Source: Xanthostigma xanthostigma (taxonomy: Eukaryota; Arthropoda; Insecta; Raphidioptera; Raphidiidae). From it: a stretch of 64,000 nucleotides of DNA. This document shows, one piece after another, positions 12,822-54,061 of the stretch. Under the pieces are notes generated by a model. It was not told where the DNA came from. It worked only from the letters and a program-made list of their open reading frames with translations, and did no database searches. A program made the translations under genes and the position numbers. The stretch is taken from contig OY754472.1 in the NCBI GenBank assembly GCA_963575645.1, positions 29,265,401 to 29,329,400 on the forward strand, read 5' to 3'. Position 1 is the first letter of the stretch, and every line of letters begins with the position of its first letter.

Positions 12822-15800
12822 TCAATGTTGATGTCCCATGGTCAGTAGCAAAGGTGTTAATGTGCCAACGACTAAGATCAACAGTTCGGAATGATTCAGT
12901 CCACTGAATCCTTTGGCATTTGCAGACAATTCTACAGTTGGCAAATGACTGTGAGTTCCGTGAACGTTTTGCGTTAATTCTGGCAGTACATGTACTGTCG
13001 CTACATATAAAAATGTGCCGGCAGAGAACAACATTGCAATTCCTGTAAACATACATAGAATTATTATAATTACCCATACTGATATTATAAAGAGGAAAAG
13101 TTTCTTAGTTTGTCGAGACTAATCTAAAGAACTACTGAATTATTTCACTGTTCAAAAGTCTACTTCTTCCCGAGTGACATATGCCACATATTAGGTGTGT
13201 TTGGTATCGTGCTACAGTTAAAAAAGTGTCGACACTTTTGGCACTTCTGTCTTACGCACTGAAAACAACACAGCGCGGAGAATTGTCAAAATCAAATTTT
13301 GAAACGGCATAACTGGTTTCAATATTACAAAAATTCTTTCGCCATTAATTTTGTAATTTTTTTAACTATAATAAGGAGTAAAAAATATAATAAGAAACTT
13401 CCTAATTAGGTGTCTTTGCGTGGTAAAACCGCGAATAAAAAATAGTAAAACCGTCATACCTGTTGCATTAACGGAACTTAAAGTTTCTTTTCCTTCTTGA
13501 CCAATACCAAAATATGTAACTAAAGTTAGAACAGGAGCTGATAATGAAAATATTATCAAATGTTTACGTATTCTTTGTCTGAAATATAAAATAATACAGA
13601 ATTAAACATAACTTTTTGCATTACGTGTTCTTCTACTAGTAGTGAATAGTTAATCCCTATCCCTATATTATTAAACGAGCTAATCTTGTATCTACCTATG
13701 TCCCTAAATATTTTCTCGAAAACGGCCCTAACGATTTGGATGAAATTTACTGAAAAGGGATTTTGGGGGGCAAAAAATCGTTTTAGCTAGGTCTCATCTC
13801 TCTAAAAAATCGTTTTCTTACAAATTTTATCATTATAAAAATCAATTTTTGACGTATTAAAATACTTAAATATTGTAAGTAGGTTTTGGAATTTTATACA
13901 AACGATGAAACAATTGTTTTCAAAATATTATGACAGTTAATCTTTAATTACTATCCAAGTGAGACTTAAAATAAATACGTATTTGAATATCAGTATTTTA
14001 TTTAACTTTCCGAGCAAAGCTCGGTCACCCAGGTACTTAATTATAGTAATCTACATCTGCAATCGACAATTACTTTTGTTAGTCATACAAAAAAAAATCG
14101 CAGGCCACATGTTTATTCATAACATTGGCAATGACACGTGTCCTATCCTTTACTTGCTATACTATGGAAGTTTTCCCTTGTCCCGTTTCCAGTAGAGCTC
14201 CCTTAATTTGTCAATCGCTGATTGACACTCTTACAATACCTGTCAATTCCTTCATGGAGAAGAAAAGTAACCAGTCCAAACGCTGCTGGTGCTTTGTGCA
14301 GCATTATAGCTAAGAATACAATAATTTCAACGTCCGCATGACTCGTAGTAGCAGCTGCTCCCAACGCCACTCCATCGGCTGCAAAACATTTTCAACAATA
14401 TAAGCAAACAGTGACAATTTGATACGTGACTATCGCTATGTGTATCAAAAAGAGGGACGGATCAAGGGATTATTTTCAGTAGATGCAATGTATGATCGAC
14501 AATTAATATTGCAGTCTGGATAATTTTTCTCTCTCTAAAAAATATTTACTCTGTAATGTCAAAAATCAATATTGGATTTACAATTTCTTATTAAAAAAAA
14601 AAATTAACTTTGGAAGTTGGTAATTTATAGTGATGTGCTGGATATCCGTATCCGTATCCGCGGATATTCAAGGGAAAAGAAAGATCCGTATCTGTTAGTT
14701 TTTGTGCTGATCTTTTACGGATCTTTTACCTTATTAATTTTCAATTCATAGATGAAATTTTATATATATAGGTGATTAGGTAATAATGAAAAACTGTTAA
14801 ATTCCATTCAGATTATTTTTCATTTTTTTTAAATCGTATTTGGCACCTTTATATTGCAAATATTTATCGAAGTGAGTACCATACCAATAGTACATAACTC
14901 AAAGGTACTAAAAAACTATCTTTATAATGAGATACTGCACATCGATCTTTGGAAAGAGATAATCTGTTATGAGAGTTAACTCTTAAAGAGATCAATAACT
15001 TTTTCTCATAACAGATAGTCTCTTTCCAAAGGTTGGTTTGCAATATTTACCACCGCATACTCTAATAAAGTAAAGATCCGTATCCGTATTCGCGGATCTT
15101 GAAACCAAAAATCCGTATTCAGATCCATATCCGCGGATATACATTTTAAACGATCTGGCACATCACTAGTAATTTATTATTATATTAAGTTTGTTCCAAG
15201 CAGCCAGCAAACGGTAACGAAACCGTCACCCGCATGCGCAGTAGCTAAAAGTGTTCTAAAATCGTCACTAACAGCTTCGTTTTCGTTACTGTGCACGCGG
15301 GTGACGGTTTCGTTACCGTTTGCTGGTTGCTTGGAACAAACTTATAATAAACTATTTTGAAGGCAGTCTTCAGTGGCAAGGGATTCAAATGTCATATTTC
15401 CGTGTAGACTCCAAAAGCGTATGGGTCCGTGTTTTCTATGGGTCAAAGAGTTCTCACCTGCAGCATGGACAACCAATCCAATAGTTGCAGTTATATTTCT
15501 CTCTGCAGGGTTCGTCGACTGATTTCTGCTAGCTGAAATCTGATCGACTAGCAACATAAACACAAAACCGAGCACAAGAGAAATGCCTATTACAGCATGC
15601 GGATCGCTGTGTGAAGGCAAACGCTCTACTTTAACGTGAACTGGAGCAGAACTATCGCTGCTTACTTCTGTGTGTTCAATTGAAAGAGACCTTATGCCTT
15701 CTGGAATGATTACAGCCAATGCGGTTCCTACTAACAACCCTGCACCGAATACGGTGACTTTTTTTAGTTTTTCCTGTAAATAAACGAAAACTTCAAATAA

Positions 15801-20559: not shown

Positions 20560-22896
20560 TTAATCAGGATGGCCAGCCGCTTGGCGAAGCAAAACATAAA
20601 TTTTCTCTTTTATCCAGTCTTTATTGTAGGGCGCATAACTATTCGTAGACTTTTGATATACAAGGCAGCTTAAGTCACACAACTGTAAAAAAAACAAAAA
20701 ATGTTAAAAATCAATACTAATAAAATTACGTATTATGACGCCTTCATACTCAATCGGAAGAGCTTTGATCTAATCCATAAAAATTGTCATTGAATTTCCA
20801 TGGAACATTGTAAAATGAATTAATGATTAGGGATTGACCGATACAATTCCGGACCAAAACGTCATCTATTGAATTATAATTTTTGTTAATATACAGTCTG
20901 AAAAAATTGGTCGATAATTTTATTTATTTGAAAATTAATCAAGTTTTTGGCATAAATTTTTGCTTGTATACTTATTCACGATGACTCACTGATAATACTT
21001 TAAGTCAGCGATTTCTAAAAGGTGGTCCGCGGGGTTCTGTGGAAGGGTTACAAGGGTTCCGCGGTCTGTCCGAGAATTAAATAAAATGTGAAAAAATTTC
21101 ATTCTTCACATTAAATAGTTGCATTCTATTTCTTTGTTACAATAAATGTTTTGCAATACCTATAATAATTAGTGATGTGCCAGATCGTTAAAAATGTATA
21201 TCCGCGGATACGGATCTGAATACGGATTTTTGGTTTCAAGATCCGCGGATACGGATCTTAACTTTCTTAGAGTACGCGGCGGTAAATATTGCACATCGAC
21301 CTTTGGAAAGAGACTATCTGTTATGGGAAAAAGTTATTGACCTCTTTAAGAGTTAACTCTCATAACAGATTGTCTCTTTCCCAAGATCTATGTGCAATTT
21401 CTCATTATAAAGATAGTTGATTTAGTACCTTTGAGTTATGTACCTACTATTAGTATGGTACTCACTACGATAAATGTTTGCAATAGGTATAAAGGTGCCA
21501 AATACAATTTAAAAAAATAAAAAATAATTTGAATGGAATTTAACAGGTTTTCATTATTACCTAATCACCTATATATATAAAATTTCATCTATAAATGAAA
21601 AATTAATAAGGTAAAAGATCCGCCAAAAACTAACGGATACGGATCTTTCTTCTCCCTCGGATATCCGCGGATACGGATATCTGGCACATCACTAATAATA
21701 ATTATTTTTCATTTATAATTTGTTCTTTCTTCGAGTCTAACATGAAAATATTCAAACTACAAGGTAAACACTTTAATAATCAAAATAGGCAGCTAGGGTT
21801 TCGCCAAAAAAAGTATGATCATTTAGGGTTCCCTGGCCAAATAAAATTGGGAACCTCTGCTTTAAGTTATGGAGGTCACCAACTTATCGAGGATCTACTG
21901 TACAAGAAATGGGGACAATTTGACCAGCATCAGACCTAATTTAACATTGTATCAGAAAAGTTCATTATACTGCAGCACTAAAATATACAATCTTCTACCC
22001 AAAGAAATAAAAAATGCTAATAATTGTTTAAGAAAAGACTTAAGGTCTTCTTAGCTGCTACATGTTTTTATAATATAAATGAATTTTTTAAACTTTTGCT
22101 ATGTATTTGACTTCCCTATACAATTTCTTGTCTTTGGAGCAATAAAGAATTATTATTATTATATGATTTAAAAACTACATTAAATTAGCTAAATTAAATT
22201 GCCGAAGAAAAAAGCTTTAATAGTGTTTTATCTCAATCGCTTGCGAAGCCGGGAGTAGCAGCTAGTGATGCTATACAAAAAGTGGAGGATGGTCCTATTC
22301 ATAACATTCACGTGGCACATATATTTACCTGGTCTACAAAATCAAATAATTGTGAAATGTCATATGTTATTGTTGGTGTATTTGGGTTTCGTCTCTTCAA
22401 ATGTTCTTCGTATATTTTACAAACTCCTTCCATACATTCGTTTACCGACTCGTAATCCGAATATGTTCTTGTTTCTGGATTTGTTCCAGGCTGAACTAAC
22501 AAAATTGTATGCGACTGGAAAAGCATTAAAAACAATTAGTATTTTAAATTTTTTAAACGGCTAACTCATTGTTAGTAACTGTTTTTATAAACAAAAGTTA
22601 ATCTAAAGTAGAAGCAGTATCTGATTATGATCTGATCGCATGAGTATGACATGTGAACAGTAACAAAAGGTGGGCATATGTAAATACTAAACCCTTTTAA
22701 TTGACAAAATGTAATAACTATTTAAACCTATTCACCATTGCCTTTAGATTCTTGAACAAAATTTAAAGAATATTTACATTAATTGTGAAAACTCGAGTTG
22801 CAAAAATTAACTTTGGTAATCTTACTTTAGTATTGTATTTTCTATATACATTTTAAAATGGAAGATTACATAAATCAACTCAGAAATACTTACCAT
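20560..22896 (-). CDS. e(r)/ERH: enhancer of rudimentary homolog, complete
   Basis: Three coding exons on the minus strand: 22896-22894 (the ATG alone, followed directly by GTAAGTA), 22514-22329 and 20682-20560. Joined they give 103 residues against 104 in animals generally. Landmarks are SHTILLVQP at the start, [35 protein letters not shown] and the C-terminal [15 protein letters not shown]. This match is essentially complete. ERH is a small nuclear protein that dimerises and takes part in RNA processing and control of meiotic and other transcripts (family knowledge). A start codon isolated on its own exon decides the start: exon 2 opens with Ser2 after a CAG acceptor. Intron 2 (20683-22328) contains a nested pair of hAT-like MITEs. 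The gene is divergent from the kinase starting at 23447. Confidence 0.96.
20837..20932. repeat. fold-back family B, single arm
   Basis: One arm only: CCGGACCAAAACGTCATC followed by ATTGGTCGATAATTTTATTT. It corresponds to the right half of the palindromes at 10495 and 16738. It lies in ERH intron 2. Confidence 0.7.
21006..21859. mobile_element. hAT-like MITE family D, copy 2, interrupted
   Basis: Starts CAGCGATTTCTAAAAGGTGG and ends GGGAACCTCTG with the exact 8-bp duplication CTTTAAGT at 20998-21005 and 21860-21867. A family C element (21170-21694) with its own duplication splits it. Without the insert it is about 320 bp. Confidence 0.9.
21170..21694. mobile_element. hAT-like MITE family C, copy 3, nested
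   Basis: Ends TAGTGATGTGCCAGATCG and GATATCTGGCACATCACTA with the exact 8-bp duplication ATAATAAT at 21162-21169 and 21695-21702. It has the long-form internal inverted repeat around GAGTTAACTCTCATAACAG. Confidence 0.9.
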
Positions 22897-33119: not shown

Positions 33120-33467
33120 AACAAGACTCTTTTTTATTCATTTAATGTTGAAGTATTTTTATATTTAATTGTCTAGGCTCGAATTTATTATTAATTTTGT
33201 TAATGTACAGTGAATCTTCAACTCAATGAGCTCTTGAAGAATGTTAGTCGAATTCTACTTCCAATATTGAGCGCATTCTCTTTGATTGTCCACTATCTAT
33301 AAAGACAAGTTTTAGTATTTTCATTTTGCGTTACCAAGGTTTCGCTTATATTTACATTTCTTATATGTCGCAAAATTTTGTAAATATTGACAAAGATATC
33401 GAATAATAATTATTATAATCATTGTCAAACTTATTGATATTAAAATAAATTGTGAAATTAAAACAGA

Positions 33468-34556
33468 ATGTTTTTTTTATCAGCAAGATTTTTGATCATG
33501 AGAAGTGTTGGAAACAGGGTTCACTTTTTTCGTGGCAATTCCAGAAAAAGTTGTAACACGGTAACATTGATACCTGGGTCTGGAATTGGTCCGGAGTTAA
33601 TGAATAACTTGATAGATATATTTACGTTCGTCAAAGCGCCGATTAATTTTGAAGTTATTAAACTATGTCCCGAAGATTCTGAAGACGATTTGAATAAAGC
33701 ACTTGCATCGATTAGAAAAAATTGTGCCGCCGTGAAAGGTAACTTTACAAGATTAGAGGATGCACCGAATGCAATAAACTTCAATGTTCAAATACGTAAG
33801 GAACTGGATTTGTTTACAAATATTGTTCATTGTTTTTCCTACAAGAACGTACGGTCCCGTTACAAGAATTTAGATGTCGTCGTTGTCAGAGAAAATACAG
33901 AAGGTGAATATAAATTGTTAGAGCATTCAGCCGTGCCGGGAGTAGTTGAATGTTTGAAAATAGCTACTGAAAAAAATTCGAGTCGTATCATAAGATACGC
34001 TTTTATGTATGCGAAAAAATATAATAGAAAAAAAATTACGACTGTCCATAAAGCTAACATCATGAAACTTTCCGATGGATTGTTTTTGAAGACAGCAAAG
34101 AAAATAGCTAAAGAATATCCTGAAATAAAACATAACGATTTAATAGTCGACAATTGTTGTATGCAATTAGTTTCAGATCCATATCAGTTTGACGTTATTG
34201 TCACTGGAAATCTTTATGGAAATATTATTTCAAATGTCTTAGCTGGCTTGTGTGGTGGTCCGGGACTTTTTTCAGGTCAGAATTATAGTGACACATACGG
34301 TGTATTTGAAGACGGATGTCGAAGTATCGGACTTGATATTGTTGGAAAAAACATAGCGAATCCGACTGCAATACTAAATTGCGGTATTGATCTACTTAGA
34401 TATTGGGATCACGATGAATGTGCTGACGTTATTGAAAAAGCTCTAAGAAAGTCATTAGAAGAAGACGGTTTTCATACTCCAGACATTGGGGGTACTTGTA
34501 CGACGAGTCAAGTAATTGACAATATTAAAGCAAACATTGCACAACTTCAGAAATAA
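33468..34556 (+). CDS. IDH3 gamma-like subunit, intronless, intact
   Basis: One uninterrupted frame of 362 residues. Residues 1-30 are Arg-rich and non-acidic, like a mitochondrial presequence; a second Met at 11 could also serve. Then TVTLIPGSGIGPEL (31-44), VVVRENTEGEY (138-148), TVHKANIMKLSDGLFL (192-207), VDNCCMQLVSDP, NLYGNIISN (248-256), NIANPTA and HTPDIGG (336-342) follow the NAD-dependent isocitrate dehydrogenase order, closest to the regulatory gamma subunit. Asn replaces the metal-binding Asp pair of the catalytic alpha subunit (NLYGD.LSD), as in gamma. Oddities are Ser39 in place of the nearly invariant Asp of GDGIGPE, and EDGCRSIG where gamma has ETATRNTG. Single-exon structure in an intron-rich region suggests a retrocopy, possibly with tissue-restricted use; that part is inference. 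An AATAAA overlaps the stop codon (34552-34557). Confidence 0.9.
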   Translation: MFFLSARFLIMRSVGNRVHFFRGNSRKSCNTVTLIPGSGIGPELMNNLIDIFTFVKAPINFEVIKLCPEDSEDDLNKALASIRKNCAAVKGNFTRLEDAPNAINFNVQIRKELDLFTNIVHCFSYKNVRSRYKNLDVVVVRENTEGEYKLLEHSAVPGVVECLKIATEKNSSRIIRYAFMYAKKYNRKKITTVHKANIMKLSDGLFLKTAKKIAKEYPEIKHNDLIVDNCCMQLVSDPYQFDVIVTGNLYGNIISNVLAGLCGGPGLFSGQNYSDTYGVFEDGCRSIGLDIVGKNIANPTAILNCGIDLLRYWDHDECADVIEKALRKSLEEDGFHTPDIGGTCTTSQVIDNIKANIAQLQK

Positions 34557-35402: not shown

Positions 35403-36128
35403 ATATGGAGTGCTAATGTACTATTGCGCATATAAATCGACAGGAACAAAGAAAGACTATAAATACAATATATGTATGTCTCCTTCTCGCGTTTTATGTG
35501 CGTTGAGGAACAGAAATGGGACTGTAGGCACTAGTCTGGGCACTAGGCAATCACGAGGTCTAAGTGCTGTCATTTATGGTTACAAATTTTTTAAATTTAT
35601 GTTCATTAAAAAAAATCAAGTTGGTTCCATAGTTACGATTTTATCAGATATTAAACAAAGACGGAATGATTACCGCACATATATAATAATTTACTATATG
35701 AATCATTCTCTATCTACTCAATGTGCGGTGAGTGAAGGCAACAAAGCGTATCGAAAATATATCTGCATCTCTTTCTTCGATGTAATTCCCTGATTTCTCC
35801 GATGATAGGATTGGTTGATGTACTTGCCATTCAATCTGAATAAAGTATCTCTGTTTCAAAAACCTTGTTTTTTTCTATGACGTTAACATGGGCGTACCCA
35901 GCTTTTGGCCCAGGAGGGGGCAAATTAGAAATTTCTTAAACTGGATCCCCCGTGCTTGTTTTGCCCTCCTGTATACGCCAGTGCTTACGGCTTAAAAAAA
36001 AAGACAGAAGTATATGTTTGCACCCTAATGTTTCGATTGCGATTTTATTCCTATACTCAGTATAGAATAAAAGTATATGGGTTACCGCCACTATCGCTAT
36101 CTCTTTTTCTCAGCCAGCACTCCATATC
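35403..36128. mobile_element. probable composite element holding a fold-back family A arm
   Basis: ATATGGAGTGCT at 35403 and AGCACTCCATAT ending near 36128 are inverted. Inside lies a single arm of fold-back family A (35697-36075): TCAATGTGCGGTGAGTGAA, then GATTTCTCCGATGATAGGAT, CAGCTTTTGGCCCAGGA and CGCCAGTGCTTACGGC. The opposite arm is missing. Confidence 0.55.
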
Positions 36129-40371: not shown

Positions 40372-41119
40372 CATTGTCTATCTACTCAATGTGCATTGTG
40401 CGGTGAGTGAATGCAACAAAGCGTATCGAAAATATATCTGCGTCTCTTTCTTCGATGTAATTCCCTGATTTCTCCGATGATAGAATTGGTTGATGTACTT
40501 GCTTACTTTGTCTTTTTCTATGACGTTAACATGGGCGTACCCAGCTTTTGGCCCAGGAAGGGACAAATTAGATTTTTTTAAGCTGGGTCCCCGTGCTTGT
40601 TTTTCCCCCTGGGTACGCCCATGCTTATGGCATAAAAAAGACAGAAATATATCTTTGCACCTTAATGGTTCGATTACGATTTTATTCCTATGCTCGGTAT
40701 AGAATAAAAGTATAGTCTGAACTCTGAATCCATACACTTTTATTCTATAACAAGCATAGGAATAAAATCGCATTCGAACCATTAGAGTGCAAACATATAT
40801 ACTTCTGTCTTTTTTTATGCCGTAAGCACTGGCGTACCCAGGAGGGCAAAACATGCACGGAAAACCCAGCTTAAAAATTTCTAATTTGCCACCTCCTGGG
40901 CTAAAAGCTGGGTACGCCCATGTAAACGTCATAGAAAAGACACAGTTTTTGAAACAGAGATACTTTATTCAGATTGAATGCAAGTAGGTACATCAACCAA
41001 TCCTATCTTCGGAGAAATCGGGGAATTACATCGAAGAAAGAGACGCAGATATATTTTCGATAAACTTTTTGCGTACACTCACCGCACATTGAGTAGGTAG
41101 GCAATGATTCATATAGGTT
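40372..41119. repeat. fold-back family A, copy with both arms
   Basis: Nearly complete palindrome. AATCATTGTCTATCTACTCA at the left pairs with TGAGTAGGTAGGCAATGATT at the right. Inner blocks GATTTCTCCGATGATAGAAT, GGGCGTACCCAGCTTTTGGC and ACTTTTATTCTATA pair around about 40740. The frames it contains are palindrome by-products. Confidence 0.85.
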
Positions 41120-42100
41120 ATTATTAAATATATGTCTGCTCTGAAGCCAACCAGCTAACCTAGCCAAGTACAAGAATTGATTGTTTTCAAACAAACGTGA
41201 CGTCGACTTGATTGGGAAAAGGAAGATTACGACCCCCGTGAATCCTCCCCTGGGTCTACGCGTGAATGTGTTATGAAAATTTCGATTTGCACAAAAATCA
41301 ATGGTACGGTTCACAACTTGTCGATTTTCGTTAATCAGCAAATTTTCCTTTCTGAACTTTTACTCATGAATTGCAAGGTTATTGATGATATTATTAACAT
41401 ATATGATGAAATTATAGTGATCAAAATAATTATCCAGTTTTGAGAAAAAACTTTCGTTCATCATTAATCTTATTTGGAGGAGCAGAGGGGAGTGTTGACC
41501 AGTCTTCTGCTAAGGAAGTGAGACGGACAGACATCGAAAATATATATAGAGACCATGAAACGTCGTAATCTGTCGAAATGTAGAATTAGATTTTGATATG
41601 AAACTTCTTTACGCACGCAAAACCGTTTCATTTTCTCGAATTTGTAAACATTTATAGCGGAAGGGGAAGTGGATCTCCTTCGCCCCACAAAAGTACCTAA
41701 TCTTGCCAAAAGCTTAGGATGTAAGTTTACCCCACTCTCCAACTTGGTTGATAGCCTTTTAATAATTGTTATTGCTCTTATCATTATTCTGCTTTAATAG
41801 AATTTTCCGAACACCTTGTACACATTTTATGAACAGGCATTTGGCTAATTTATGCTTCCGTTCTACGGGTTTCTGTTAGCGATATTTTGTAGTATATTAT
41901 ATATTATTTCATTTTATAGAACACGTTATCAATGCATAAATTATACAGAGAAGCCCAAAATCTAAATTTACGTAATTTGAACAGAAAATAAATTGATTAA
42001 TAGCTAGAAGTTAATACTCTTCTGTAATTGAGGGCATTGAGGCAGACAATAGGGAGCCACAATAATAACTCTGGTATTCCAAGATGATATTGTGACAAAA
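41120..42100. other. gene-free stretch
   Basis: Minus-strand frames at 41003-41341 and 41470-41784 carry no recognisable domain. No element ends found. Confidence 0.4.
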
Positions 42101-46109: not shown

Positions 46110-46625
46110 TTTTTTTGATAAAGGGGTATGCAAATTGTCTCGCAGTGAAACGGGAAGGGGCAAATGTGGAGTTTAAAAAAAAAAACAATTCTGGGGTGAA
46201 CGATAAACGGGTATGCGAATTGTAATTCCGGGGTGAACGATAAAGGGGTATGCGAATTGTCTCGCAGTGAAACGGGAAGGGGCAAATGTGGAGTTTTTAA
46301 AAAAACAATTCCGGGGTGAACGATAAACGGGTATGCGAATTGTAATTCCGGGGTGAACGATAAAGGGGTATGCGAATTGTCTCGCGGTGAAACGGGAAGG
46401 GGCAAATGTTGAGTTTAAAAAAAAACAATTCCGGGGTGAACGATAAAGGGGTATGCGAATTGTCTTGCAGTGAAACGGGAAGGGGCAAATGTTGAGTTTA
46501 AAAAAAAAACAATTCCGGGGTGAACGATAAAGGGGTATGCGAATTGTCTCGCAGTGAAACGGGAAGGGGCAAATGTTGAGTTTAAAAAAAAACAATTCCG
46601 GGGTGAACGATAAAGGGGTATGCGA
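46110..46625. repeat. minisatellite array, locus 1
   Basis: Unit of about 83 bases containing AAAGGGGTATGCGAATTGTC, GCAGTGAAACGGGAAGGGGC, a poly-A tract and CAATTCCGGGGTGAACGAT. Two early repeats carry an extra short piece of about 38 bases (CGGGTATGCGAATTGTAATT), making a longer unit. Long minus-strand frames are artefacts of the array. A second locus is at 53185-53450. Confidence 0.85.
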
Positions 46626-46759
46626 ATTAGATAGTTAATTGTTTGAATAGAACTGCGTTTTCTAAAAAATGCATATTTAATTGACAGTCAATTAAATAAA
46701 TATTTTTTAATAGCTGTACGAATAAGTATATATTATTCGTACAGTAACTGTACGAATAG

Positions 46760-47709
46760 ATGCAGCCCATTATTTAATACAATATGACATAATAATTATT
46801 TTGGATCAATCTGTGTTAAGTCGGTTTATTTAGGATATTCCATAAATTAATGACTGCAATATCGCATCCAGTTGAATACAATCCATTGTTTCGTTAAGTG
46901 TACAATCGTTAAATTTAACCACGTGCATTAAAAACCGGCATTTCAGAAATATCTGAAGATTAGTTTCACTGTTGCTTTGCTGTTTCTTATTCATTTCAAT
47001 ATTAACGATATTTGTTTATCTTTTTAAGCGAGAATTTATAAGTAAAAATAATTAATAAATTAGAGTAAAAACATTTTTCAAAAACCACGAAAATGACAAA
47101 ATATTAAACTAATTATTTAAATAATCAGTGTCTTTCTCTGTTAGTAATTGAAGTGCATTTTTCTAAAAAAAGTTTTTAATTTTGCTGCGTTGTATAATTG
47201 TTTAAATAGTCTTTTTTCCTTTTTGTAGATTTTTAGAGTTTTTCACGAAATGAGTGCTTATAAATAGTTTTACACTTTTACCGGAAATCGATAAATAATT
47301 TGTATGCTAATTTCTGTTATTGTTATAAATAAAATAACTTAATATTTGCGAATTACAAAGAACTCGGCTTTTGAAAATAAAAAATGATATAAAAACTATT
47401 AGTCATATACCTATATTTAAAAACATCGTACTTTTATTTTCAAATTTAGTCTTATATCTATAATAATCAATATTAGTTGTACTACGACACAAAATCAAAT
47501 AGCCAAAACTCAATTCCGATTGAATTTGGATTATCGTCGACTTTCTTCTATTTTGATATTAAAACTCAAGTATATCTAGTTCGAAGACAATATTGTTAAA
47601 AAAAAACAACATAGCAAGTGCCGTTCTCTAAATAACTTTCTAAAATAATGGAAAAACTGTATCCGTAAATTTCGTTTCAAATTTGGTTTATTATTTATCT
47701 AAAACATAA
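46760..47709. other. gene-free stretch upstream of the 47710 gene
   Basis: Strongly AT-rich, no element borders. It probably contains the promoter or 5' UTR of the gene starting at 47710; no core element stands out. Confidence 0.4.
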
Positions 47710-50700
47710 ATGACAAAGTTGAGAAAACAACTTGAATTTAATATAAGAAAGAAATACAAGATGGATCCTTCGTCACATAAGCTTCCAATGTCTCCAAACA
47801 AGCGTTTGAATCTGCGATTACGTAAAGTGTTAAGTTTGGGAGCATTACGAGAGAATAAGCCCACCAGCAGCAGTCAGCCCACGAGTCCCGTTGGGACTCA
47901 ATGGTATTCATCTAATCCGTCTTATGAATCTCTGCACTCTCCACGCTCTGTCAAGTAAGTTTATATCATTTTTTCTTCTCTTTGCCTTCAAAGCTTCAAT
48001 AATATAAAAACATACTTATCTATTATACTAGCAGTCCGTCCCGGTTTCATCCGGGTGCGATAGATATATAGTCTAAGAGCTAGTGAACCATCTGAGTAAC
48101 CCGTTTCCCACAAAGCTAGAAAATTTTTAAATGATGTTTTATTATCCGTCATTTAAGAAAATACCGTTCTGGCAGGCATCTCGCGGTTGCGTCATCATCC
48201 CTTAAATTTTTGAAAATGTCAAAAAAAACTTTTTTTTAACCTACTCCCACAAGGCTACAATTTTAATATGTTGTAATTTACATATGTTTAAGTGTAAAAA
48301 AAAAATGACAGACTATTTTGAGGGTTGCAAGTATGTGCCAGACAATAGCAAAGTTGTCATCGGGATAGTAATTCGTAACCTGCTCCCACAAGGCTAAAAT
48401 TTTGAGGGCATGTTCTTTAAATTGTTTAAAAAATATATGTAAAAAGCCAGAACATTCTAGCGGTTGCGGGTGTCTGCCAGACAAGTATATAATCACAATA
48501 TAATAGTCATGACTCTCGATGGGTGCGAGCGCAACAGACTTATACGAGTTCCAATGTTAGAAAGAAAGAATACATCTATTGTACTGCAGACTGGAGAGGG
48601 ATTCCAACGTTATTTTAACGGAAAAAGTGAGCGCGCATGAGGGGCTGAGGCGTATATGTAATAGACTGTATAAAAAAAATCGAGTATTTTTTTTAAATAG
48701 ACCACCGAAATATTATTCTAAATGACGGAAAAAAGGCTCTCGAAGTTTCAGATCTTAATATTAATATTAAGAGTATTCGTCCCTGCAAATACCCCCTGCA
48801 CCCTTCATCTCAAATCTTTTCCCCTCGCCTTAAAACGGTTGGCGCTCTCCCGACGCTATTTTTAAAGCTAGAGGGTTCTGGTAAACGCCAAATGAAAGAC
48901 AAAGAATCAGACTACAGATCCTTCAGGCGAATTTTTTGAAAAACAGTTTCGCCTACGTGTGAAATATTACGTAACTTATTATTTTTTTCAAAAGGTTGTA
49001 AGTTTTTTCAGGAATTTTTTTTTCAAAAAATTCGCCTAAAGGATCTGTAGTCTGATTCTTTGTCTTTCATTTGGCGTTTACCAGAACCCTCTAGCTTTAA
49101 AAATAGCGTCGGGAGAGCGCGAACCGTTTTTAGGCGAGGGGAAAAGATTTGAGATGAATTGTGCAAGGGGTATTTGCAGGGACGAATACTCTTAAGAGGA
49201 GCCTCTCATCGCGATTTTCTATTTCCCATTAAATAACAGAAAAAAAAAATCTTTTTAGCTTTAGTGTTTTATAATATGTCAACGGATAAAACTAATACAA
49301 ATTTTTGTCGGAAATTGAATGCCCTATAAAAACGGGTCTCTTATTATTTTATGATAAATCTACTCTTTCAAAAGTTATTCGCGGTTAAATTTTAATTTCA
49401 TGAATTTTCTATTTTTAAAATTATCGTAAAATTTTGTAGTTTTTTTTTGCAAAAATTGCTATTATTTGGACATGGAAATATCAATTTTTTCCATTGAAAA
49501 TCATTCATAAAGAAAATCATATACCAATCACTTAAAAATTTTAATTATTTATTTAATAGCAATTTTTTCAAAAAAGTTCTACAAAATTTTACGATAATTT
49601 TAAAAGTAGAAAATTCATAAAATTCAATTTTAACCGCGAATAACTTTTGAAAGAGTAAATTTATCATAAAATAATAAGAGACCCTTTTTTATAGAGCATT
49701 CAATTTCCGACAAAAATTTGTAGGTGTTAGTTTTATCGAAAAACCAATCCGTTGACATATTATAAAACTCCAAAGTTAAAAAGATTTGTTTTGTATATGT
49801 AATTTAAAAGGGAAATAGAAAATCGCGAGAAGCACATCTTAAAATTAATATTAAGAGCTGAAACTTCGACAGCCTTTTTTTCCGTCATTTAGAATAATAT
49901 TTTAGTGGTCCATTTAAAAAAAATACTCGATTTTTTTTATACAGTCAGACATATACGCCTCAGCCCCTCATGCGCGCTCACTTTTTCCGTTAAAATAACG
50001 TTGGAATCCCTCTCCAGTCTGCAGTACAATAGATGTATTCTCTCTTTCTAACATTGGAACTCGTATAAGTCTGTTGCGCTTGCACTCCCATCGAGAGTCA
50101 TGACTATTAAATACTTGTCTGGCAGACACCCGCAACCGCTAGAATGTTCTGGATTTTTACATACATTTTTTAAACAATTTAAAGAACATGCCCTCAAAAT
50201 TTTAGCCTTGTGGGAGCAGGTTAAGAATTACTATCCCGATGACAACTTTGCTATTGTCTGGCACATACTTGCAACCCTCAAAATAGTCTGTCATTTTTTT
50301 TTACACTTAAACATATGTAAATTACAACATATTAAAATTGTAGCCTTGTGGGAGTAGGTTAAAATAGTTGGCAAAACCAAAAGTGCACATCCCGCAAGTT
50401 TTCCACTGTATGATAAAAAAATAACAATTAAAAAATATTTTTAATAAATTTAAAAAGATTTAAAAATTTAAAGAAATAAATAATTAAAAATTGAAAAAAT
50501 ATTTTTTTTTAAGTTTGCAAAAATAAAAAAAATTAAGTACTATACATAATATAATATATAATTAATATCAAGTGGAATAAAATAAAACAAAATAAAAAGA
50601 AAAAAAAAGAAAAAAATCAATGATATCGTAAGGAATCGAACCCAGGACCTTGCCCTTGGCGATCCGACGGCATAACCATTACGCCACGGCTGCCTAATAC

Positions 50701-53700
50701 GTATAGTGGTGTTATCACGGTATACAAGTGTAGCACTTGTTTTATGGATTACACTATGTTTAGCCAGCAATTATTATATTGTTTTTAAACTATTAATTAG
50801 CTGTCAAAAATAATAAAAAATAAAAAAAATATATGAGAAATATATTATATATAATATATAAATATTAAGTGGAATTAAGTGGAATAAAATGGAATATAAA
50901 AAAAAAAAAATTCTTATGTCAGCGGGAATCGAACCCGGCACCTTGGGATTACATGACTTACGCTTTAACCGTTCGGCCACACCGATGCCGTACAACGCCT
51001 TTGTTATTATGGTATAGAAGTGTAGCAGTTATTTTACGTATCATACTACATTAATTGAGTATATTTATTATGTTTTTTGTTTTTTTATTTTAATTAGCTG
51101 TCAAAAATAATAAAAAAAAAACTGTTTATAAAAATTAAACTACTGAACACATTTTAGTGAATTTAAATAGGGTTCTGGTCTGATAGTAAACAAAGTGAAT
51201 AAAATATAACCCAAGGGGATCCGACCAAAATTGCGATCTGTAGAGTCGTGACGTACGTACATACGTACGTACGTACGTACGTACGTACGTACATACGTAC
51301 AGACCAACCGACAACTGCTGTTTGTGATTTTCAATTACAATTTTAATAGTATTTATGAACTCGAATTGATTTAAAAATGGTTCTGTTTTATAGATCAGAA
51401 TCTCCTCTTTTCAAAAAGTTTCATTTTGAATGGATTTCGTGTGAAATTAACTTAGATATAACTTCTTATCTGAACGAAAGTCAGCTCTGATGCACAAAGC
51501 GATAATAAAGCACATACCGCTAGTTTAGCGGTATGTGCAAAAAATTTTTTTTTGACATTTTCAAAAATTTAAGGAATGATGACGCAACCGCGAGATGCCT
51601 GCCAGAACGGTATTTTCTTAAATGACGGATAATAAAATATCATTTAAAAATTTTCTAGCTTTGTGGGAAACGGGTTACTCGGATGGTTCACTAGCTCTTC
51701 TACTAATAGTTCTACAAAATATATTTCGTTTGCGGCCCGACGTCTGAACTAATAGCTTTGAGCAAATTCTACCAGATTCAGTGGCGGATTTGCAGTCTTG
51801 GCTGCCCTAGGCCCCAGGCCATGTAGTAAGTATCAGCCGCCCCTTTCTCAGCACCCATCATACAGAATAGACTACCTACATAACGCATTTACTTTATTGC
51901 CAACTTTTATCGAAATCGATTCAGAAATTTAGTTAATTATAATAGCTGCAAGTTTGTCATATTTTCCGAGGTTTCAGGGATGATTGCACATTTAAATAAA
52001 ACATTTAATATCCACTATACATATAATATTATACACTCTCACGAACTAATTTTTGAACTTACACGTTGCGCGCTATCATAAAGCTGACGTAAAAACATCT
52101 TAGAAGACGTTATATGTGAAGTAAACTCAAAGTTATAAAAAAAAATCCTCGAAAATAACTCAAAATTGTTGGTTTTAATAAGTTGTCTGTTTTAAATGCA
52201 TTTAAAAAAAACTCAACTGTCCTAATATTGATCTAAATTAGATATTCCGATCACTTTTTGAGGAAGCTGGAAGATTATTGTTATACGATGGAATGCAGAC
52301 TGCACCGTGCAGTGCAACCCGCCATACGCCATAATGTGTTTTGTCACGATTGGCCGCCCCTAATATCTGGCCGCCCTAGGCCCGGGCCTATACTGAGCCT
52401 TGTAAATCCCCCACTGACCAGATTTGCTCCTGAACTAATAGCTTTGAGCGAATTCTATCAGATGTCGCTTCTTGGTACTAAAGCAGTCTTTTTTTGTTTG
52501 TTTCTGAACTAATAGCTTTGAGTAAATTCTATAAGATATCTATAAAATGGGTACCTACACAATTTTGTTAGACAACCTGTAAGTTATACTATGTTGTGTA
52601 TGGTATACAGTAGTATAAGATGGATTGCCTGCCGCTGGGATAATAGTTGTGTCTAAGAGGATGTAATTGACAGCAGGAATAATGGAACAATCAACGTCCA
52701 CGTTTCGTTTTATTCATTTCGCCTACCAAGTCGTCCATTTTCAAGACAGCTCTTACCTATAGACATAATACAGAATCTTTATACTTTTATCTCATAACCA
52801 CAATGACGTTTCAAAAACGTTCGATAAAGGCAAGGACGTAAAAATATATAAACGAACCTAACACTCTCTATATTTAGTTAAGGGGAATTATAAAACGGTC
52901 GAATAAAAAAAAACTTGGTGACTGATGATGAGAAACTGTTTTAATAATTTGAGCGGTATGAAATAGAGTAAGCGAAAAAATAACTAAACTAGCGACAAAT
53001 ATTGGTTAATAATAAAATCCAGAACGGGCTTACAAACATTGGATTGTGAATAATCCATCTGAGATATTAAAATAATAGTTGGGTGACTAAATTACTAAGT
53101 GAGCGACTTGAATGCCTTCGGTAATTTTGAAGCAGATATCTTCTTTTGTTTTTGTTTTTACTTTTAATTTTTTTTTCACTTTGTGACTACATTTTCATGA
53201 AGATTGAAAACCACCGCTTTTTTTGATAAAGGGGTATGCGAATTGTCTCGCAGTGAAACGCGATGGGGCAAAGGTGGAGTTTTTAAAAAAATAATTCCGG
53301 GGTGAACGATAAACGGGTATGCGAATTGTAATTCCGGGGTGAACGATAAAGGGGTATGCGAATTGTCTCGCAGTGAAATGGGAAGGGGCTAATGTGGAGT
53401 TCTTAAAAAAACAATTCCGGGGTGAACGATAACGGGGTATGCGAATTAAATAGTTAATTGTTTGAATAGAACTGCGTTTTCTAAAAATATAGTTAGATAC
53501 ATTACAAGTTAAATAAAAGCTTTTAAAAAATGTGAGTCCAAAATGCCGCTCAGAATAAATAAATCATTTACCAAATTTTGAAAAAAATGCAGGACGTAAC
53601 GTTGACACTCAAACAAATATTAGGTCGCTCAAATATTATGAAGCTTCCCATTTTGTATTTTAAGTAACTCAAATGGATATTTGTAAGTTGCTGTTCTGTT

Positions 53701-54061
53701 GATTTCTCGTCACGCGCAGTTAGTCGCTCACTTAGTAATACAGTAACCCAAATTGATTATTTTTGTCACCCAAAATTGTAATTTACAGTCACTCGTTTAA
53801 ATACTACCCTTTAGTTAATACAATGTACTAGATGATGACAACATCCACTATGAGATGATGAGTTTAGAATAATTTTAGATGGATACTTTTTACTTTTTAC
53901 TGCGTTGTTGAAAAGTTTAGTTGTAATTATACAGTTTCAGTAACCGTTCAATTTGAGAGCAATAAACCATTTTTATTTTGCAGTAGCGACGAGGGATTTC
54001 AAGGATCGTCAGCTTCATTGGAAACGGAACCACTGTCTCCAACCGTTGCGGCAATAGTCAG
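47710..54061 (+). CDS. unidentified Ser/Pro-rich protein, N-terminal two exons
   Basis: Exon 47710-47954 (81 codons plus two bases, GTAAGT donor) joins exon 53984-54061 (CAG acceptor, GTTAGT donor) in phase 2, and the second exon also ends in phase 2. The 107 residues start MTKLRKQLEFNIRKKYKMDP and are basic to about residue 45 (MSPNKRLNLRLRKVLSLGAL). They then become Ser/Thr/Pro-rich with SP or TP sites (TSPVGTQWYSSNPSYESLHS, HSPRS, EPLSP), consistent with a phosphorylated, disordered N-terminal region. No domain is recognisable, so no function is assigned. The in-frame splice, good sites and coding-like composition support a real gene. Further exons must lie beyond 54061; none was found with confidence in the window. 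The 6.0-kb intron holds the composite palindrome and a hAT-like element. Confidence 0.65.
50530..50825 (-). repeat. tRNA-like repeat unit 1
   Basis: On the minus strand the central part reads GTGGCGTAATGGTTATGCCG (box A-like) and then GGTCCTGGGTTCGATTCC (box B). Flanks GACAGCTAATTAA and CCACTTGATATTAATTATA also occur in unit 2. Acceptor ends do not pair. It is a tRNA-derived repeat. Confidence 0.75.
50826..51123 (-). repeat. tRNA-like repeat unit 2
   Basis: On the minus strand GTGTGGCCGAACGGTTAAAG, then GTGCCGGGTTCGATTCCCGC. It matches unit 1 in layout, length and flanks, with the same orientation. Its tRNA part is more complete, but the acceptor stem still does not close. Confidence 0.75.
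51250..51300. repeat. (ACGT)n microsatellite
   Basis: About twelve tetranucleotide repeats with two ACAT variants. ACGT is self-complementary, so each strand can fold on itself. Confidence 0.95.
51743..52535 (+). repeat. short direct repeats GAACTAATAGCTTTGAGC
   Basis: The module GAACTAATAGCTTTGAG followed by AATTCTA occurs near 51746, 52432 and 52505. The hAT-like element at 51779-52416 landed inside the first module. Confidence 0.7.
51779..52416. mobile_element. hAT-like element in the intron of the 47710 gene
   Basis: Ends CAGTGGCGGATTTGCAG and GTAAATCCCCCACTG, with CTGCCCTAGGCCC mirrored by GGCCGCCCTAGG inside. The exact 8-bp duplication ACCAGATT is at 51771-51778 and 52417-52424. 638 bp, no transposase frame. 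Confidence 0.88.
53185..53500. repeat. minisatellite array, locus 2
   Basis: Same unit as at 46110 (GGGGTATGCGAATTGTCTCG, GCAGTGAAA, ATTCCGGGGTGAACGATAA) in fewer copies. It has the same left flank (CATGAAGATTGAAAACCACC) and right flank (TTGTTTGAATAGAACTGCGT). The 48-base inverted ends and tRNA-like part of locus 1 are absent. Confidence 0.85.

Follow-up and report, generated by a model that had tools for sequence, protein, structure and literature searches.

Very long, internally repetitive TIRs characterize Galileo (P superfamily) and the classical FB elements of Drosophila. Galileo generates 7-bp duplications, and its transposase is known. In root-knot nematodes, the Mutator/Foldback family Tm1, in which the TIRs of a copy show a mean identity of 93.15%, includes foldback copies that harbour another inverted-repeat element nested inside them (PMC3169594). 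Long-TIR foldback transposons thus do carry names, contrary to a preliminary description of the locus presented here, which knew of no named family with such a layout. The locus lies in a window of 64,000 nucleotides, the whole stretch of DNA analysed. We are highly confident that the structure is one non-autonomous cut-and-paste foldback DNA transposon, hereafter FB, whose long TIRs make up approximately the whole element and which was split by two insertions, A and H.

The entire FB copy including A and H occupies positions 48069–51705 (3637 bp; approx. 2.04 kb without the insertions) and is flanked by a 3-bp target-site duplication, ATA (48066–48068 and 51706–51708). A TCTA duplication, our first guess, was ruled out once other copies fixed the ends. 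The termini TAGTCTAA and TAGTAGAA are common to other copies. The inverted repeats themselves are beyond chance, as the best self-complementary match scored 824 bits versus a maximum of 49 bits across 100 first-order Markov sequences of equal length. In the outer arms, 48234–48772 pairs with 49837–50364 (94%) and 48069–48235 with 51539–51705 (96%); inner inverted repeats were located at 48767–49195 and 49192–49842. When A and H are skipped, the arms, approx. 970 bp long in this copy, align continuously through the junctions drawn previously. The left arm (plus strand) comprises an outer part (48069–48770) and an inner part (49196–49464). It is followed by a centre of 89 nt (49465–49553), where full-length FB copies have an extra palindrome of approx. 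1.2 kb, and by the right arm (minus strand) with its inner and middle parts (49554–50364) and outer tip (51540–51705). The repeated module mentioned in the preliminary description is present twice per arm and measures approx. 109 bp; in the left arm, both units lie in the outer part (48237–48345 and 48376–48484, 70% identity). As is typical of foldback elements, the long TIRs form much of the element and contain internal repeats. Of the two inner repeats formerly considered independent, 48771–49191 is indeed a separate insertion, but 49205–49835 is the inner arm of FB itself, one half of it being the inner part of the left arm. The outer arms and this inverted repeat constitute a single, non-coding FB transposon.

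This assignment draws on FB copies within the same 623-Mb genome, of which 29 loci were read, window included. The FB end pattern (21 nt, 19 of them fixed) had 57 exact matches genome-wide compared to 0 for the reversed control. Comparing the arms with the assembly, a check proposed at the outset, uncovered a family of interspersed copies with paired ends and duplications. A duplication of at least 3 bp was present in 24 of 25 end-paired copies including the window, i.e. in 22 of 23 from one set (of 3 bp, except for 4 bp at a single T run) and in L064 and L065, both with TAA in their flanks as judged by eye. L061 is end-paired without a duplication, and in four of the 29 loci the second end was absent from the stretch read; both observations count against the FB explanation. 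Common ends and target duplications at unrelated sites, read from the copies' own flanks, document the mobility of the family. That the palindrome is false and originated during assembly is practically out of the question, because the arms differ through substitutions and indels, each arm contains a different insertion, and members of the family occupy numerous sites, with 24 other end-paired copies read and target duplications in nearly all of them.

Full-length FB copies (n=5) measure 3.15–3.23 kb and are nearly all palindrome, with arms of approx. 1.6 kb that are 5.2–6.3% different, a tiny apical loop and no long reading frame. At eight sites, the window among them, a 2-kb form lacks the middle approx. 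1.2 kb; the gap is identical (alignment columns 1610–2825) and the eight copies form a clade (support 0.957). Outer arms and inner repeat were found in one unit of 1.9–2.05 kb in five copies read whole. L011 differs from the other FB copies by 6.6–9.4%, a further point against the FB explanation. Exact terminal patterns of FB had no match in viral or prokaryote contigs, and comparison of 48000–51800 with phages gave zero matches.

Viewed in the window copy, the locus might also consist of three independent inverted-repeat elements, with a TTAA element, B (49196–49836), having inserted centrally into an outer zero-loop palindrome before the composite spread. The inner arms differ at 22 of 254 sites and the outer arms at 17 of 671 (Fisher p 1.4e-4), the GC content of the B arms is 24% versus 35% for the outer arms, and TTAA is present at each border of B. 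Taken alone, divergence and AT-richness would suggest an older nested element, and on these grounds B was favoured as an independent MITE until the genome copies led to the rejection of this view. The B arms are present in 5/5 full-length and 8/8 2-kb-form copies examined, and in full-length copies the palindrome runs on through B up to the centre of FB. Moreover, the outermost bases of B appear by eye to be among its least conserved, unlike those of a functional TIR. Short copies without a match to B do exist (e.g. L051, L053, L055 and L062), but they are also devoid of parts of the outer arms and therefore look like internal deletions. Three independent elements are thus very unlikely, and a separate insertion of B as a recent event is nearly excluded.

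Beside its own inner arm, the single FB element carries insertion A (48771–49191) in its left arm, a hairpin MITE with arms of approx. 180 bp that are 95% complementary. It is bordered by TTAA on the left (48767–48770) and right (49192–49195), and in accordance with a TTAA-target MITE the site is found without the second TTAA in seven A-free FB copies. L013 and L014 contain A, partly deleted, at the same site as the window, and this identical position suggests that FB and A probably transposed together as a unit. The three A-carrying copies cluster inside the 2-kb-form clade (support 0.919). Divergence of A among them is 2.3–5.2% in global alignment (2.7–2.9% when L013 and L014 are compared with the window in local segments), and that of FB is somewhat lower with 1.6–2.2%. 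As a single insertion of A should result in equal divergence of A and FB, the higher values of A count against the FB explanation. Exact terminal patterns of A and H had no match in viral contigs.

The interruption of the right arm at 50365–51539 (minus strand), which had been left unexplained, is another inserted element, H, located in an A/T run and HINE-like, i.e. of the non-autonomous Helentron type. None of the 28 FB loci read apart from the window contains H. Nevertheless, H has no fewer than 33 further copies with 99–100% identity, which gives the impression of a very recent HINE burst. H contains an (ACGT)n tract and two tandem units of approx. 297 bp that seemed tRNA-like by eye. This identity was rejected, as ARAGORN detected zero tRNAs in the window and Rfam reported no tRNA in the units, only sub-threshold matches including 11–15-nt tmRNA pieces. 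Palindromic subTIRs and a weak 3′ stem-loop were recognized by eye in the window and 14 other copies; the borders TTGCACA at the 5′ end and CTAT at the 3′ end recur in all 14 of the latter. HINEs insert between T and T and leave the target unduplicated; since H lies in an A/T run, the exact empty site is unreadable for the window copy; uninterrupted sites of A and H are visible in other FB copies. HINE and DINE-1 elements share with H a palindromic 5′ subTIR, a matching 3′ subTIR and a small stem-loop at the 3′ end, as well as a T on either border and a microsatellite plus tandem repeats (PMC4067079). The mite HINEs described there have a 3′ subTIR 38–60 bp from the end and a 3′ stem of 5–10 bp, whereas in H the 3′ subTIR is closer to the end and the stem is only approx. 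4 bp long (PMC4067079).

A palindrome family of 3.2 kb occupying several sites, eight sites without the middle approx. 1.2 kb, MITE A at the same TTAA in three of these eight gapped copies, and H in the right arm of one of the three, the window copy: this distribution suggests the order deletion, A, H. One deletion would have removed the middle of FB and been followed by further transposition. A single insertion of A at TTAA might then have been transposed again, and H would have inserted last, before or after the arrival of FB in its present intron. A transposase supplied in trans would recognize TAGTNNAAGAGCTAGTGAACC ends, and its 3-bp staggered cut would produce the 3-bp duplication. Growth in steps, as surmised before, would have taken the form of nested insertions A and H in FB. 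An apparently unprecedented composite hairpin is explained by ordinary transposon nesting, the likely course of which can be traced in its copies within this genome.

The FB copy likely resides in a 6.0-kb intron of a host gene. A likely host exon, counted from its ATG (47761–47954, plus strand), ends at a GTAAGT donor. The likely next exon (53984–54061, plus strand) is phase-compatible, preceded by the acceptor TTTTGCAG and followed by a GTTAGT donor. Continuity of the joined frame points to one intron around the structure, as the preliminary description had it. A Pfam search with the first host exon gave zero matches. The predicted RNA fold reached −2017 kcal/mol with 81% paired bases, compared to −696 to −776 kcal/mol for five Markov controls. 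RNA of the likely intron could therefore form long dsRNA, consistent with the potential hairpins noted earlier. A very strong predicted fold in a likely intronic position might indicate a host-beneficial hairpin-RNA locus, in which the folded intron transcript is cut by Dicer-type enzymes into regulatory siRNAs. We consider this highly improbable, as the fold is a consequence of transposon anatomy and the sequence is interspersed in the genome and broken by two insertions. Furthermore, 22/22 Rfam matches over 47500–52500 were below gathering scores, and microRNA families were dismissed on these sub-gathering matches.

The position of the transposon FB among the superfamilies was addressed through its duplications and a potential partner. 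Mutator elements have 8–11-bp and P superfamily elements including Galileo 7–8-bp target duplications, and neither agrees with the 3 bp of FB. CACTA elements combine CACTA termini with a 3-bp duplication; this length fits, but FB termini read TAGT...ACTA. PIF/Harbinger elements produce 3-bp TWA-type duplications and have a DDE transposase as partner; the 3-bp duplications of FB are TTA or TAA in 9/24. No autonomous FB copy or transposase was found in the two of 13 candidate stretches (exact end matches) that were read. These two widest pairs of exact end matches correspond to L064 (7 kb), a full-length FB interrupted close to its centre by a retroelement-like insert, and L065 (4 kb), a rearranged FB; by eye, neither has a frame resembling a DNA-transposon transposase.

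As a near-perfect palindrome of 3.2 kb that has managed to spread, full-length FB makes a useful natural case. Our literature search found no family recognizable as FB by title or abstract, from which absence from print is not claimed. FB seems to constitute a new family among the foldback transposons, a kind already known. It is doubtful, with a small chance in its favour, that FB represents an undescribed cut-and-paste lineage, defined by a nearly wholly palindromic 3.2-kb structure, 3-bp duplications and TAGT termini, that transposes and persists in spite of the instability to be expected of long palindromes with almost no loop, and that carries passengers such as A.

Galileo and the classical Drosophila FB resemble our FB in their very long and internally repetitive TIRs; Galileo differs by its 7-bp duplications and known transposase. 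Tm1 has composite repeat-bearing TIRs, short asymmetric end motifs, MITE-like members and nested inverted-repeat copies like FB (PMC3169594). In contrast to FB, in which no transposase was found in the copies read, some of its members encode a putative transposase, and it has mostly 9-bp duplications and 13–15-bp repeats instead of 3-bp duplications and approx. 109-bp modules (PMC3169594). Tetris of Drosophila virilis is likewise an apparently non-autonomous foldback element, in which TIRs reach 1,735 bp and tandem repeats occur internally, and it has a shorter relative, DAIBAM (PMC4079207). Unlike FB, Tetris has 8–10-bp duplications, a middle domain of variable composition and repeats of approx. 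220 bp (PMC4079207).

Between positions 48069 and 51705 the window carries long inverted repeats, namely an outer pair (48234-48772 with 49837-50364), its tips (48069-48235 with 51539-51705) and two inner repeats (48767-49195 and 49192-49842). The best self-complementary match reached 824 bits, whereas none of 100 Markov sequences exceeded 49 bits, which excludes a chance origin. The coordinates given in the preliminary description are correct, but its parsing is not. When a hairpin MITE (A, 48771-49191) and a HINE-like insertion (H, 50365-51539) are left out, a single inverted repeat remains, extending from the outer tips by way of the inner repeat (49205-49835) to an 89-nt centre. The arms of this fold-back transposon (FB) then measure 970 and 971 bp, and their alignment, some flank and loop included, contains 931 matches, 75 mismatches and 69 gap columns. 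In the window copy the inner arms differ at 22 of 254 sites and the outer ones at 17 of 671 (p = 1.4e-4); given this higher inner divergence, the window alone is not decisive on an older, separate inner part.

Copies elsewhere in the same genome settle this: outer arms and inner repeat are one element. The whole-assembly search proposed in the preliminary description covered 28 contigs totalling 623 Mb, with the window at C9:29265401-29329400. Since 40 of 4812 first-look candidates were scored, its counts are lower bounds. Both parts recurred together, free of A and H, in at least four places (C4:30466141, C1:46718184, C1:43907300 and C9:9127792), and with a partly deleted A at the same position in two (C8:26904013 and C6:18182268). 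Hence the second of two supposedly independent, adjacent inverted repeats is in fact FB's own inner arms. With the 160-bp FB tip as query, 40 matches were scored among 115 candidates; the FB end pattern had 57 exact matches compared to none for a reversed control.

Full-length FB (3.15-3.23 kb) is represented by five copies (L044, L045, L047, L048 and L049). Four align to their own reverse complement nearly end to end (about 91% including gaps), L044 in three pieces, and the predicted central hairpin has an 8-nt apical loop preceded by an imperfect final stretch. The two halves differ by 5.2-6.3% in substitutions, compared to 0-1.4% between the five copies, indicating that the arm difference predates their spread. 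The rest of the copies paired in the 27-locus search described below measure 0.7-2.7 kb, being shortened or rearranged. The window copy represents a form without the middle ~1.2 kb, a gap common to eight such copies. The longest stop-to-stop frame in the five full-length middle domains is 148 aa, and the window copy has no frame of 110 aa or more. At C12:16867135-16874242 (L064), a gag-pol-like retroelement frame was recognized by eye near the centre of a full-length FB palindrome.

The end-pair search covered 27 loci, 26 genome stretches plus the window. Both ends are present in 23; the other four have one end only in the stretch. A 3-bp direct duplication accompanies 22 of the 23 end-paired copies (4 bp in one, in a T run), while L061 has an end pair without duplication. 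By eye, TAA also flanks two additional wide pairs (L064 and L065) on either side, and 9 of 24 duplications read TTA or TAA. The ends show a nearly fixed asymmetry: TAGTCT stands at one of them in 20 of 23 pairs, TAGTAG at its partner in 21, and 18 pairs have both.

A has arms of about 180 bp that are 95% complementary. TTAA lies on either side where A is present, and the second TTAA is missing in all seven FB copies without A that were inspected at this site. Three A-bearing FB copies cluster (support 0.919) within the clade of the 2-kb form (0.957). A varies somewhat more among them (2.3-5.2%; 2.7-2.9% in local pieces versus the window) than FB does (1.6-2.2%). The simplest reading of the sequences is still that A inserted once and then travelled as a passenger of FB; repeated insertion at one and the same TTAA is a less likely alternative.

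H lies on the minus strand in the right arm, within an A/T run that is uninterrupted in other FB copies. None of the 28 further FB loci read contains H. At least 33 copies with 99-100% identity exist elsewhere in the genome. Among 14 compared (L004-L008, L015-L023), all share the borders TTGCACA and CTAT, and 11 are identical to the window copy over 1175 bp. H appears to represent a very recent burst of a HINE-type element. Its palindromic 5′ end (GCACATACCGC-TAAACTA-GCGGTATGTGC), matching 3′ part (GCGGGATGTGC) and small TTGG/CCAA stem are HINE features (PMC4067079). H departs from the HINEs described there in two respects: its 3′ subTIR is closer to the end than the 38-60 bp of mite HINEs, and its 3′ stem has only about 4 bp instead of 5-10 bp. 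H also holds two tandem units of ~297 bp, 70% alike, with stretches on its sense strand that look tRNA-like by eye; neither ARAGORN nor Rfam called a tRNA in these units.

The copies document units with constant ends and flanking 3-bp duplications in many places, a deletion form common to several of them, and A and H as insertions. A transposase, most likely from a DDE superfamily cutting with a 3-bp stagger, would act on FB in trans, and the deletion would have preceded A, and A in turn H. PIF/Harbinger-like enzymes would agree with FB in duplication length and in the lean towards TWA, but no transposase was seen among the FB copies read. Mutator and P superfamilies are disfavoured as the duplication length does not fit.

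FB likely resides in an intron, as initially described, with a length of 6.0 kb judging from the in-frame join of the exon ending at 47954 to the exon at 53984-54061 with standard splice signals. Folding of the region, also proposed initially, predicted -2017 kcal/mol. The intron RNA could form hairpins, a potential for which transposon anatomy is explanation enough. Related 37/83/120-bp units (AATTCCGGGGTGAACGATAAA...) form tandem arrays on either side of FB (46117-46628 and 53225-53447). Genes in the window comprise an isocitrate dehydrogenase-like gene, a protein kinase and a weak ZIP transporter match, a set in keeping with an animal, perhaps an insect; an unbroken 364-aa NAD-isocitrate dehydrogenase gamma-like frame (33462-34556) is perhaps an intronless duplicate. 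Further inverted pairs of ~410-535 bp with 88% identity (14649-15174 with 21164-21679; 35677-36083 with 40727-41135) are probably additional repeat copies.

By its ends and 3-bp duplication, FB appears to be a new family relative to the published foldback transposons considered. Its layout, for which the preliminary description knew no named family, has precedents: Tetris (PMC4079207) and Tm1 (PMC3169594) are foldback transposons with long repetitive TIRs, and some Tm1 copies hold a nested inverted-repeat insertion.
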